From a virus, in the IMG/VR virus record IMGVR_UViG_3300021197_000972, positions 1-21,873 of that record: a stretch of 21,873 nucleotides of DNA; one strand, written 5' to 3'. This document shows, in pieces, positions 216-17,798 of the stretch (position 1 is its first letter; each line of letters begins with the position of its first letter). Made by a program: the position numbers and the translations under genes. Below the pieces are notes generated by a model, which was not told the DNA's origin, made no database searches, and worked only from the letters and a program-made list of their open reading frames with translations.

Positions 216-243
216 GGGATTAGTCTAGTTGAGGAGAAAGACA

Positions 244-546
244 ATGGAGACAATTACACTGGAGCTACCTGACTTTTGGGCAACCGCACTGTTTTATGAT
301 GACACTAGCGGTTTTGAATATGAGGACGAGAAGCCGTTCCAAGACTTTTGCCACTGGGCCGTAACAAATTACGGCACTTCTGAGCCTGTTGATATGGACG
401 AAGAAGGCCAATTCATGAAATACCATGACGCTGAACGGTTCGGCGTTCTCGCTTGCAACGTTCACCGCTATACTTTTATTGTGAATAACGGCAACCCAAA
501 GACTAGCGCAATGAAAACACTAGCGCACACAATGGAGGGTTCGTAA
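244..546 (+). CDS. Small protein of unknown function, 100 aa
   Basis: The ATG at 244 is preferred over the in-frame TTG at 229, because an AGGAG ribosome site (232-236) sits 7 bases before it and would lie inside the longer version. The protein is acidic and begins METITLELPDFWATALFYDD. The N-terminal W-A-x-x-L ... D-x-S-G pattern loosely recalls small phage and plasmid proteins of the DUF6926 kind, but I could not verify this. No membrane segment or catalytic motif is visible. It is the first gene after the strong promoter at 187, and its stop overlaps the ATG of a 16-codon frame at 546. Early expression from its own unit fits an accessory or host-takeover role, which is inference. Confidence 0.7.
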   Translation: METITLELPDFWATALFYDDTSGFEYEDEKPFQDFCHWAVTNYGTSEPVDMDEEGQFMKYHDAERFGVLACNVHRYTFIVNNGNPKTSAMKTLAHTMEGS

Positions 547-668: not shown

Positions 669-744
669 ATATGTATATACACACATATACGCACATACAT
701 GTGATCGCGCGCGTTCTCTTTGAATATAAAAAACCGATTTTTGA

Positions 745-770
745 CGCTGGATTTTTCCAGCGTTTTTTTT
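745..770 (+). terminator. Strong intrinsic terminator
   Basis: Stem CGCTGGA (745-751), loop TTTT and pairing arm TCCAGCG (756-762), followed directly by eight T residues (763-770). This is a textbook rho-independent terminator on the + strand. It backs up the one at 640 and insulates the amidoligase unit from upstream transcription. Confidence 0.85.
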
Positions 771-850: not shown

Positions 851-905
851 CTAGGTATAGGGCGACAGCTTTGCCCTACAATCTAGTAAAAAGGTAACAA
901 AATCA

Positions 906-1244
906 ATGACTTACACATTTTCGATAGAACTACCAACAGATGAAATAGAAAGTCTATTTCATGAATTTGATGACGATCATGCGGCTATCCCTAGTGTTGC
1001 ATGCGCAAATAGTTCTTGGGCCGCTAAGAGTAACAACAAGCAGCATAACGAATTCGTTGACATGTTTGTGAGTGACAAAATTCCTGCAAATAGAATTCGC
1101 CAATATAATATTGGCAAAAAGATGCAAGGAAAGCGTACCTGCTATCAGATGGATATGGACCGCCGCGAACGCTATGCGCATCGCGCCAATCCGCGTTTTG
1201 TTTGCGATACGCAAGCATTCATTCAAAGCATCATTGACGCATAG
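906..1244 (+). CDS. Protein of unknown function, 112 aa, upstream of amidoligase
   Basis: It starts at ATG 906 behind a weak AAGG site (891-894) and stops at TAG 1242-1244, overlapping the ribosome site of the next gene. No family is recognised. The middle is polar with many Asn and His residues; the C-terminal part reads RRERYAHRANPRF followed by a likely amphipathic helix. The first residues MTYTFSIEL mirror the next gene's MAYTFGIEI, and the two start regions also match at most DNA positions, suggesting a duplicated start. The tight coupling to the amidoligase suggests a partner or substrate, which is inference. Base use (A/C-rich codons) matches the amidoligase and differs from everything after 2653. 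Confidence 0.65.
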   Translation: MTYTFSIELPTDEIESLFHEFDDDHAAIPSVACANSSWAAKSNNKQHNEFVDMFVSDKIPANRIRQYNIGKKMQGKRTCYQMDMDRRERYAHRANPRFVCDTQAFIQSIIDA

Positions 1245-1255
1245 GAGTAAAAACA

Positions 1256-2347
1256 ATGGCTTACACTTTTGGAATAGAAATCGAAACATGCGGCGCAAGC
1301 ATTGCAACCGTTCGCAACGCTTTGACAAATGCAGGAATTCGCGGTTGCCAAGTGAAACCAGACGGCACGCCAAGCGTTGACGCTGAAATCGTGTTGCCAC
1401 CATTGGCAATTAATCTGGACGAAAACCAATCAAGTCAAATAGCGTGCCGTTATTTGAATGACGTTTGCGCAGCGCTGCAATCAGCAGGTGCACGCATCAA
1501 TTCAGCATGCGGATTGCATGTTCATATCAGTAATGCGCCGCTTGCCGATACAACGCATTCCGCGCGGTTTACTGGTGATAGCATCGCCCATACTGAAAAC
1601 ACTGGACGGTTCTTGTCGCAGCATGGTGAACCAATGGATTTTATAGAGGTTCAAGACGTGCAAAGACGGATGACGCGGCAACAACGCGTTGTCAATTCTA
1701 TGTTCCCACGTTCGCGCACAAACAATCGCTATTGCTCACAATTGGATTTGTCGCGTATCGAAGCGGCAACCAATATCAGCCAATTGACGTTTGGCAAGTT
1801 TACTACAATCAACCTACAAACATGGTCACGCGGCACAATTGAATTCCGCCAAGCGTCCGGCACAATTGAAGCGGAAAAGATATTCAATTGGGTTTTGTTT
1901 CTCTTGAACCTAGTTGAACATACAACCCAAAACCGCGTTGAACATGGTAGCCGAACAATTGTAACGGATACGCCAGAAATGCCATTCAGACGCGGCGCGC
2001 GTGTTGGTGTTCAATACACAATGATGCGCACCGAAAGCGGCGCGACAACACAAGAGATCATGGACGCAACCGGATGTAGTGAACAACGCGTCCGCGCAGC
2101 GGTTTCTGAAATCAGAACGCGTGTTGGCGATGCCGCTGTTATCACTAGCACGCAGCAGGCAAATGGTGCGCGTTATGGTGACGGCACAAACCATACCGCA
2201 TACCGCGTGCCGCGTACGTTTGAAACCGTGGGAAGCGGCGCGGCATTGTTGCCAGAACACCGCATTGGCAATGCGTCGATATGGGCAGGCATATCGGACG
2301 AATTGTTTGAATGGTGGCATAATCGAATACAAACACTGGCGCTGTAA
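1256..2347 (+). CDS. Amidoligase-family enzyme with C-terminal HTH-like region
   Basis: A 363-aa protein with the features of the Amidoligase_2 family (glutamine synthetase-like carboxylate-amine ligase fold). It shows FGIEIET at residues 5-11, DAEIVLPPL around 42-50, CGLHVHIS at 85-92 (the family's HxH), and GTIEFRQ at 193-199 followed by a helical segment. Enzymes of this superfamily join a carboxylate to an amine using ATP; family members are proposed to modify peptides or cell-wall-like polymers. The substrate here is unknown. Residues 262-290 (GATTQEIMDATGCSEQRV and following) look like a helix-turn-helix of the kind that follows a variable linker in phage proteins, giving an enzyme plus DNA-binding arrangement. 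An AGGAG site at 1243-1247 supports the ATG at 1256. Six CAATTG hexamers lie between 1739 and 1961. A strong terminator follows. The enzyme family is well supported; the HTH is a pattern call. Confidence 0.8.
   Translation: MAYTFGIEIETCGASIATVRNALTNAGIRGCQVKPDGTPSVDAEIVLPPLAINLDENQSSQIACRYLNDVCAALQSAGARINSACGLHVHISNAPLADTTHSARFTGDSIAHTENTGRFLSQHGEPMDFIEVQDVQRRMTRQQRVVNSMFPRSRTNNRYCSQLDLSRIEAATNISQLTFGKFTTINLQTWSRGTIEFRQASGTIEAEKIFNWVLFLLNLVEHTTQNRVEHGSRTIVTDTPEMPFRRGARVGVQYTMMRTESGATTQEIMDATGCSEQRVRAAVSEIRTRVGDAAVITSTQQANGARYGDGTNHTAYRVPRTFETVGSGAALLPEHRIGNASIWAGISDELFEWWHNRIQTLAL
1951..1962. repeat. Palindrome-like copy inside the amidoligase gene
   Basis: CCGAACAATTGT, an 11-12 base match to the intergenic motif, sits inside the amidoligase coding region and encodes part of S-R-T-I-V. 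Codon preference (CAA-TTG, ACA-ATT) explains the other CAATTG hexamers nearby. This copy also carries the CCGAA flank, so it may be a true internal site. Confidence 0.35.
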
Positions 2348-2378
2348 AGCGCCAGAAATACCCCTGACACTTCGAAAG

Positions 2379-2410
2379 AACCCCGCCTAGTGCGGGGTTT
2401 TTTGTTTTTT
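2379..2410 (+). terminator. Intrinsic terminator after amidoligase
   Basis: Stem AACCCCGC (2379-2386) pairs with GCGGGGTT (2392-2399) around a 5-base loop CTAGT. The T run continues to 2403 and is followed by G and six more T. It ends the unit that starts upstream of 906. Confidence 0.85.
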
Positions 2411-2652: not shown

Positions 2653-3234
2653 ATGCCTGAGAATTGGTGGGAAGATTTGGGCTTGATGCGTAGATTGTAT
2701 AGTTATGACGCTGAGAGTGGTTTGATATATGCGTGTGATCGTTTGGAGTGTGATTTTGAGGATCGTGGTGAGGGTAGTTCATTTATGAGTGCTTCTGGTG
2801 CTGCTGCGAAGTATAACAAGGAGTTTAGTGGTCGTTTATCGTTTAACAGGCGAGTTAGGACGCGAAGATCGACTTGTGATTATTTGTGTGGTGGTGCGTC
2901 TTATAAGGGTGTTACCAAGAAGTTGTTTGCGCATCGTGTAGCGTTTTTTTTGTATCATGGATATTATCCAGTTTTTCCGAATTCTGTTGATCATATTAAC
3001 AGGGATGGTTGTGATAACAGGATTGTGAATTTGCGAGAGGTTACGCCTCGTGAGCAGTCTGCTAATACTGGATTGAGCAGGGCGAATACGTCTGGAGTTA
3101 AGGGTGTGAGTTTTTTGAAGGATCGTGGTAAGTGGCGTGCTTCTGCTAATATTGATGGTCGGAAGGTAAATTTGGGGACGTTTTTTGATATAAACGATGC
3201 GATTGCGGCGAGGAAGGCAGCTATAGATGCCTAG
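2653..3234 (+). CDS. HNH endonuclease with AP2-type DNA-binding domain
   Basis: A 193-aa free-standing endonuclease of the HNH_3 plus AP2 type, common in phages as a mobile (homing) gene. The HNH core begins near residue 95 with LFAHRVAFFLYHGYYP. It continues with VDHINRDGCDNRIVNLREVT from residue 112, where H114, N116 and the D-N-R of the second half are the metal-finger and catalytic pattern. Residues 147-192 (SGVKGVSFLKDRGKWRAS onward) form the AP2-like three-strand sheet and helix that grips DNA. An AAGGGG site (2638-2643) supports the ATG at 2653. The end overlaps the next start by 8 bases. It would cut an allele lacking the gene, or a competitor genome; this is family knowledge. Confidence 0.88.
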   Translation: MPENWWEDLGLMRRLYSYDAESGLIYACDRLECDFEDRGEGSSFMSASGAAAKYNKEFSGRLSFNRRVRTRRSTCDYLCGGASYKGVTKKLFAHRVAFFLYHGYYPVFPNSVDHINRDGCDNRIVNLREVTPREQSANTGLSRANTSGVKGVSFLKDRGKWRASANIDGRKVNLGTFFDINDAIAARKAAIDA

Positions 3235-13564: not shown

Positions 13565-13762
13565 ATGGACGCAATACATCTTGCAGAATATTTATACAAA
13601 GGCATTCGTGAGCGCGATATTCGTCTAAAAGACAAGCTTGCGGATGGTTCGATACAAACATTTGATGAGTATCGGTATATTGTAGGCGAAATACGCGGCA
13701 TGGCCTACGTCGAAGAAGAATTAAGAGCCGCGATGAAAGGTATAGAGTACGCAGATGACTAA
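13565..13762 (+). CDS. Small protein of unknown function, 65 aa, upstream of GroES
   Basis: The ATG at 13565 (MDAIHLAEYLYKGIRERDI) is preferred to the in-frame TTG at 13547, which lies within the likely -10 region. The protein is helical and charged, with YRYIVGEIRGMAYVEEELRA near the C-terminus, and looks like a small two- or three-helix bundle. Phage genes of this size and helical pattern often sit just before capsid modules, but no family is confirmed. The end overlaps the GroES start by 8 bases, so the two are probably translated together. No ribosome site is evident. Confidence 0.6.
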   Translation: MDAIHLAEYLYKGIRERDIRLKDKLADGSIQTFDEYRYIVGEIRGMAYVEEELRAAMKGIEYADD

Positions 13763-14243
13763 AAAGTTATTTGTACCAGAGCACGTTGCTGTAGCAGCGG
13801 ACAAGGTTGCAAAGGGCGCAAAGGCAATGCCAAAGCCCATTGAGAACGCGTTTGGTAAAGGCGCGGAAAATAAAAACGAAGATGATCCATCCCAGATGGA
13901 AGCTTCATCACTGGAAAGACTACCACAGCCTACGGGCTATCGTGTTCTTATCATCCCTTATTACCCTAGTGAAAAGACAAAAGGCGGCATTATCGTTCCT
14001 GATCAGGTTCGTGAGCGTGAATCTTTTGCTACGGTAGCAGCTTATGTCGTGAAATTAGGCCCTGATGCCTATATGGACACCCAGAAGTTCCCAAATGGTC
14101 CTTGGTGTAATGAAAAGGACTGGGTTCTTATAGGAAGATATAGCGGAAATAGGTTCAAAGTGGAAGGTCTTGAGGTTCGTATCATAAATGACGATAACAT
14201 TATTGCTACGATCCTTGACCCAAAAGACATTTCATATGTATAA
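13755..14243 (+). CDS. groES: GroES-like co-chaperonin (Cpn10)
   Basis: A 162-aa protein. Residues 58-158 match the Cpn10 beta-barrel: GYRVLIIPYYPSEKTKGG begins the barrel, with the mobile-loop core GGIIVP at 77-82, and VLIGRYSGNRFKVEGLEVRI and DDNIIATI close the fold. The usual GroES is about 95 aa; this one has an extra N-terminal segment of about 55 residues and a longer loop (MDTQKFPNGPWCNEKD). GroES caps the host GroEL ring; phage versions such as T4 gp31 are known to help fold the capsid protein. Its position between portal and scaffold or capsid genes suits that role. The N-terminal extension may adjust docking or the substrate, which is inference. Confidence 0.88.
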   Translation: MTKKLFVPEHVAVAADKVAKGAKAMPKPIENAFGKGAENKNEDDPSQMEASSLERLPQPTGYRVLIIPYYPSEKTKGGIIVPDQVRERESFATVAAYVVKLGPDAYMDTQKFPNGPWCNEKDWVLIGRYSGNRFKVEGLEVRIINDDNIIATILDPKDISYV

Positions 14244-17262: not shown

Positions 17263-17293
17263 ATTGATTGTGTTATTGTGATTTCATCCCTGA

Positions 17294-17312
17294 CAGTCGC
17301 ATTGGGCGACTG
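17294..17312 (+). promoter_or_regulatory. Leader hairpin upstream of the 17337 gene
   Basis: CAGTCGC (17294-17300) and GCGACTG (17306-17312) form a 7-bp stem with loop ATTGG, ending 15 bases before the CAGGAG ribosome site. No T run follows, so it is not a terminator. It may stabilise the 5' end of the next mRNA, be a processing site or be an operator. No clear promoter is visible in 17263-17336. Confidence 0.45.
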
Positions 17313-17336
17313 ACTTAACCCAGACAGGAGATTGAC

Positions 17337-17798
17337 ATGGGTATTACTACTTTTTCTGGTCCAATTAAGGCTGGAACCATAAAGAATACTACAGGCAGTA
17401 CACTTGGTTCTGACGTTGCTAACGTTGGTCAGGTTGTTATGTCACAAACCTTTTCAGCAGATTTGTCTGGTGGGGCATTAGCCGCAGTCGTACAAGATGT
17501 TGTTATTCCTGCTAACTCACAAATCATTGACTGTGTAATTGATGTAATTACTGCGGCGAATGCTACAACCAACTTGAGTGTTGGTGATACTGTTGGCGGT
17601 GCGGCAACAATTCTCAACACTTTTGCAAGTGGTACAGATGCAGGTCGTAAGTATCCAACAACACAAGCTGGTGCTGCACTTGCTTGGCAAGATACAGGAA
17701 CAGCGGACATTCGTTTGACTGTAACTGCTTCAGCAGCAACAAATGCGGGTTTGGTTCGTTTTACTATCTTATACGCTCAAAATAATAATTTAGCGTAA
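17337..17798 (+). CDS. Putative virion structural protein, 153 aa
   Basis: An Ala/Thr/Val-rich, Lys-poor protein with GACAGGAG upstream. It begins MGITTFSGPIKAGTIKNTTG, continues NVGQVVMSQTF and ends RFTILYAQNNNLA. Long runs of alternating small and hydrophobic residues (QIIDCVIDVITAANATTNLS) indicate beta structure, like a decoration or fibre-base protein. It follows the capsid terminator, has its own leader hairpin and is probably made in quantity. No family name can be given from the sequence alone. Confidence 0.55.
   Translation: MGITTFSGPIKAGTIKNTTGSTLGSDVANVGQVVMSQTFSADLSGGALAAVVQDVVIPANSQIIDCVIDVITAANATTNLSVGDTVGGAATILNTFASGTDAGRKYPTTQAGAALAWQDTGTADIRLTVTASAATNAGLVRFTILYAQNNNLA

Follow-up and report, generated by a model that had tools for sequence, protein, structure and literature searches.

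Does the amidoligase gene of this phage fragment form a self-regulating system with the small gene ahead of it and the palindromes around it, or does the enzyme work with another partner? The window, the whole stretch of DNA that was analysed, is a 21.9-kb fragment (21,873 nucleotides) of an uncultivated phage from aquatic metagenomes; the phage is called marine here. An earlier note, made from the letters alone, had placed the gene of a 112-aa protein ahead of that of a 363-aa protein, and both open reading frames are present at the coordinates it gave. The coding features are:

229 to 546, plus strand: 105-aa gene with no function assigned, upstream of the locus and kept in the nearest relatives.
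906 to 1244, plus strand: gene of the 112-aa protein, an optional occupant between leader and amidoligase (open reading frame; relatives).
1256 to 2347, plus strand: Amidoligase_2 enzyme of 363 aa, with a glutamine-synthetase-like core at aa 1–240 (Pfam, PHROG 2443, fold).
2003 to 2248, plus strand: DUF3489-like C-terminal winged helix-turn-helix, aa 250–331, between the catalytic core and the last helix.
2297 to 2344, plus strand: conserved C-terminal helix of the enzyme, aa 348–363 (AlphaFold2, with low pLDDT here).
8111: TerL (PHROG and ORF list).
10703: portal (PHROG and ORF list).
16271: major capsid (PHROG and ORF list).

The amidoligase assignment, originally proposed from the motifs FGIEIET, CGLHVHIS and GTIEFRQ, is borne out by family and fold. 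The 363-aa protein matches Amidoligase_2 (PF12224) over aa 36–219 with an E value of 2.4e-17 and 64.1 bits, the curated Pfam cut-off being 22, and it matches PHROG 2443; viral amidoligases match it at E 6e-10. The AlphaFold2 model, for which an alignment of 29 sequences was used, has a mean pLDDT of 79 and superimposes on glutamine synthetases with a Z score of 11.4 and on YbdK with a Z score of 10.1. Foldseek with this model gave no PDB match below E 1e-3, a search of solved structures by sequence, using profiles of the enzyme and of the HTH, returned chance-level matches only, and an NCBIfam search with the enzyme gave no match. Relatives of the enzyme align over its full length in groups at 94%, ~ 70% and ~ 50% identity, and the gene is conserved, with dS far above dN. 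Across 29 relatives there is little or no variation at E8, E10, C85-G-L-H-V-H90, N186 and T194-I-E-F-R198. Matched by motif and aligned range rather than by residue-level superposition, E8, E10, H88, E196 and R198 probably correspond to the metal- and phosphate-binding residues of glutamine synthetase. The helix at aa 348–363 lines up, by eye, with the FYRxRAAVL-type ending seen in other amidoligases (the tails of L069, L074, L078 and L051). Amidoligases at the same position in three contigs (L115:2790, L122:3193, L165:4183) carry FGNEWE or GGVELE in place of FGIEIE at a diverged N-terminus, and these are possibly substrate variants.

The HTH-like stretch that had been noticed at residues 262–290 belongs to a winged helix-turn-helix. 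In the AlphaFold2 model, helices at residues 249–257, 265–272 and 276–290 are followed by strands at 296–299, 314–317 and 321–331, with pLDDT values of 81–89 in the blocks covering aa 241–290. Foldseek matches to this domain are MarR-type regulators and a DUF3489 phage protein, and the comparison with DUF3489 (PF11994) suggested at the outset yielded a weak Pfam match on aa 255–306 (E 1.9e-4, 21.9 bits). The domain is called DUF3489-like, and not a member of DUF3489, because this match lies below the gathering cut-off of 29.5, which none of ten relatives of the phage enzyme passed. The lowest nonsynonymous change in the protein is found in aa 255–306 (dN 0.07–0.09 at dS 1.3–1.5, compared with dN 0.24–0.26 in the catalytic part), and these rates indicate that purifying selection acts more strongly on the winged helix than on the catalytic part. 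The winged helix is real and selected, of a type that binds nucleic acids, and it is related to DUF3489. Fusions of Amidoligase_2 with DUF3489 occur in Desulfovibrionales (L069, L074 and L078) in the same order, namely catalytic domain, winged helix and conserved last helix, and the fusion is therefore not private to the phage lineage. In two of them (L069 and L078) DUF3489 scores above the cut-off, in the same place as the phage winged helix. The Desulfovibrionales enzymes differ from the phage enzyme in that they share only ~ 25–28% identity with it and their DUF3489 is nearer the family consensus. No phage-type cyclotransferase was found near the Desulfovibrionales amidoligases, one of which (L074) adjoins CII-like and repressor-like phage genes.

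The 112-aa protein has no family match in Pfam, PHROG or PADLOC, and its predicted model has a pLDDT of 52, too low for use. A single-sequence search of viral contigs and phages found no relative, nor did tblastn against the first relatives of the locus. A 40% identical relative is present in L173, and a profile scan gave eight loci; the relatives, ~ 40% identical, lie directly upstream of the amidoligase in L186–L193. The upstream slot was surveyed in 69 distinct cases. No gene is present in 35 of them; a stand-alone winged helix occupies 11, the 112-aa family 6 and an 86-aa family 4, the remaining 13 being other or unclear. The stand-alone proteins are DUF3489-like winged helices of 57–59 aa directly upstream of the enzyme (L001:7825-7998, L014:2544-2717, L048:4818-4994, L137:270-443, L160:2250-2429). 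The 112-aa gene is a linked but optional neighbour of the amidoligase. The expectation that it encodes the ligase's substrate, or a toxin/antitoxin-like partner, draws on its adjoining the enzyme, only a few nucleotides away, in eight of eight loci known for the family; this adjacency stands. The role as partner or substrate is quite unlikely, with the family in 6 of the 69 slots, the others empty or taken by a stand-alone winged helix or by small genes that are unrelated, neither a toxin nor a defence match for the protein, and a cyclotransferase as the consistent neighbour instead.

By capsid (69–73% identity) and terminase (55–62%), the nearest named phages are HTVC023P-type pelagiphages, DSL-LC04 and 023Pt_psg01. 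Clues to the host of the lineage were sought: no tRNA genes were found, and a genome scan gave remote homologues only. The window encodes a co-chaperonin GroES at 13755-14243 (PHROG 3188, E 4e-13), a gene reported as core in HTVC023P-type phages (PMC9599517), and it carries a Mu-gpT-DE RNA motif (Rfam, 66 bits) at 17288-17339, just 3' of the major capsid gene. Between the amidoligase and the late genes, at 2653-3234, lies a gene for an HNH endonuclease with an AP2-like tail. This gene is probably mobile; it was seen in four fetched relatives (L012, L013, L016 and L025) and not found in the others. In some relatives its place is taken by a 190-aa cupin-like protein (L055:2120-2689, minus strand; PCO_ADO, E 0.001), which is identical in several contigs.

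The locus had been described as accessory, a description that does not hold. The amidoligase with its winged helix is present in all ten contigs in which TerS and TerL are both encoded, and a gamma-glutamyl cyclotransferase (GGACT, PF06094) in 13 of 13 amidoligase-bearing contigs tested, counts that are partly redundant and include near-duplicates (e.g. L003/L004 and L047/L048). The amidoligase is core in the lineage, and the cyclotransferase, not the 112-aa protein, is its consistent companion. In most members the cyclotransferase lies in a divergent operon beyond TerS, a caveat to any co-expression with the amidoligase; in the 50%-identity group it is found just upstream of the amidoligase on the same strand, and it also adjoins distant amidoligases of 27–34% identity. 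The phage of the window probably carries it as well, judging from these relatives, as the window ends short of the region. Both enzymes are encoded by Arthrobacter phage Kovu and Bacillus phage 035JT001, and neither was found in the HTVC023P-like cousins HTVC023P, HTVC027P, DSL-LC04 and 023Pt_psg01. Contig L218, which came to light through its cyclotransferase, also encodes TerS, but no amidoligase appears in the 2.6 kb next to TerS.

The regulatory features around the locus, listed without strand where they have none, are:

30 to 41: the palindrome GAACAATTGTTC without mismatch, ahead of the preceding transcription unit.
101 to 112: copy of the palindrome with two mismatches.
743 to 764, plus strand: terminator-like hairpin with a T-run, upstream of the operon (consensus match only).
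789 to 800: exact copy of GAACAATTGTTC, 117 nt before the first start codon and upstream of the operon's promoter-like elements.
855 to 887, plus strand: hairpin in the 5' leader, built around GGGCGACAGCTTTGCCC and ahead of the ribosome-binding site (leader alignment).
2375 to 2403, plus strand: terminator-like hairpin with a T-run, after the amidoligase (consensus match only).
2432 to 2443: copy of the palindrome that differs at one position, 85 nt beyond the stop codon of the amidoligase.

The terminators claimed for both sides of the locus thus appear as consensus-matching hairpins. The sequence of the leader hairpin varies among relatives, most of which predict a hairpin there; its folding z scores range from -0.7 to -4.5 in the lineages that have it and are ~ 0 in others, and an Rfam search of the leader returned nothing. 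As a conserved RNA element it was rejected, its stability being often near that of shuffled controls. Imperfect tandem repeats of GGGTTCGGG lie upstream of the operon at 596-644 and are common to relatives. TATGGGA was considered as a second operator and rejected, since it occurs near promoters yet is scattered over the genomes too.

The repeated palindromes are real: the two exact copies of GAACAATTGTTC in the window compare with 0.00 expected from shuffles, and a near-copy is present at 1953, inside the amidoligase gene. G003 (54.6 kb) has three exact copies, none of them outside a 2.3-kb stretch around the amidoligase. The earlier note had suggested a self-regulating enzyme, whose winged helix would bind these palindromes and control its own operon and the late operon. 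Their placement is in keeping with this. In most relatives of the 70% group a copy precedes the first start by ~ 115 nt (-113 to -117), and many relatives have a further copy past the terminator, ~ 70–95 nt from the amidoligase stop. The enzyme-less HTVC023P-like cousins have no palindrome between the terminase genes (DSL-LC04 has one GAAC-N4-GTTC site), and the stretch of contig L218 that was available has neither the enzyme nor the palindrome. However, a site read by the helix should co-vary with it, and GAACAATTGTTC stays exact among lineage relatives although the recognition helix takes forms as different as CSEQRVRAAVSEIR, TAINIRARISEIR, VAETSVRRMVSEIR and GSEGDVRRRVSELR, among others. 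Self-regulation through the palindrome is accordingly doubtful, and another protein is the likelier reader, because the site is constant while the fused recognition helix changes widely.

There is an even chance that this reader is a host regulator or another conserved phage regulator, with the amidoligase operon as a member of its regulon and only a target. The palindrome is exact across divergent members, intergenic and upstream of successive transcription units, and the leader copy ends ~ 20–31 nt upstream of a -35-like element, all of which suit such a regulator. The search for one conserved across the lineage has been less favourable: none was identified, and for the XRE protein of G005 a BLAST search of part of G003 found no relative. 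The GAAC-N4-GTTC palindrome resembles the Gram-positive LexA SOS box, a likeness that serves as a lead only. A separate regulator is compatible with the explanation of the enzyme's function preferred below, and both can be true.

On balance the best explanation, which we consider probable, is that the ligase and the cyclotransferase together remodel a gamma-glutamyl-type substrate during infection, the winged helix probably connecting the ligase with DNA or a partner and probably not reading GAACAATTGTTC. At the expense of ATP, the 363-aa ligase would couple an amine to a carboxyl group, probably the gamma-carboxyl of a glutamate-type residue, and the cyclotransferase, whose gene lies on the other side of the terminase small subunit in these phages, could cleave gamma-glutamyl-amide bonds; we infer this chemistry, formation by one enzyme and reversal by the other, from the two families. 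The substrate would most plausibly be a cell-wall peptide or a small metabolite, and the outcome would favour the phage, for example by wall modification or superinfection exclusion. For phage cassettes of amidoligase and cyclotransferase, a change to peptidoglycan that keeps out other phages has been proposed (PMC5498523; PMC10580990). That the target here is a wall peptide, and the effect a shielding of the infected cell from other phages, is a conjecture; the wall role is borrowed by analogy, because GATase_6 and ATP-grasp_4 (PF13535) of the fuller wall-modification cassettes are missing in eight of eight genomes of the lineage. The system is most likely reduced to amidoligase and cyclotransferase, a minimal pair lacking the glutamine amidotransferase or ATP-grasp enzyme that those cassettes contain. 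A wall-modifying or anti-host role, as raised in the earlier note, is conceivable. PADLOC defence models matched neither the enzyme nor the 112-aa protein, the cyclotransferase or the 57-aa protein.

Two other roles for the winged helix were weighed. It might bring the ligase to phage DNA to complete an amino-acid-bearing base modification, as could be imagined for a ligase and a DNA-binding-type domain in one protein, glutamyl-thymine pathways having been reported for some HTVC023P-type phages (PMC9599517). Such DNA-directed chemistry is highly improbable, and DNA hypermodification was rejected as a candidate, since thymidylate synthase (PF00303) and HMUDK_hel (PF18723) were not found in six lineage genomes. 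The enzyme might instead be a phage trigger enzyme, whose ligase core responds to a gamma-glutamyl product, or itself produces one, while the winged helix works at some DNA site that is not the palindrome (e.g. the TATGGGA-type repeats around the -35 element) and stand-alone winged-helix paralogues in the upstream slot tune the enzyme. We regard this as unlikely; if true, wall or glutamate metabolism would time late gene expression.

Under the preferred reading of a ligase paired with a cyclotransferase, the lineage is of interest in that a common group of uncultivated marine phages keeps the two as core genes without the other genes of the fuller cassettes, and the pair is a minimal unit for testing amidoligase-cyclotransferase function. 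The winged-helix fusion, with its counterparts in Desulfovibrionales, raises the question of whether a phage ligase acts on DNA as well. No experiment on this amidoligase branch was found in the literature. The statement that no described phage system has this layout does not survive comparison, as amidoligase-cyclotransferase cassettes are described in PMC5498523 and in Kovu. The locus is a variation on a known phage cassette and not a new system.

The enzyme shares its fold with glutamine synthetases and YbdK-type carboxylate-amine ligases (Z scores of 10–11), whereas its sequence identity to them is 8–16% and the winged helix is an addition in the phage enzyme. Known cassettes (RIO-1-like podoviruses, phiEco32, the LUZ24 group, Kovu and 035JT001) likewise combine amidoligase and cyclotransferase in one phage. 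The fuller phage cassettes contain a glutamine amidotransferase (GATase_6) and an ATP-grasp ligase, in contrast to the present lineage, in eight genomes of which neither GATase_6 nor ATP-grasp_4, the one ATP-grasp family searched, was found. Compared with the known cassettes, the present one adds the C-terminal winged helix to its amidoligase and places the cyclotransferase mostly in the divergent operon beyond TerS.
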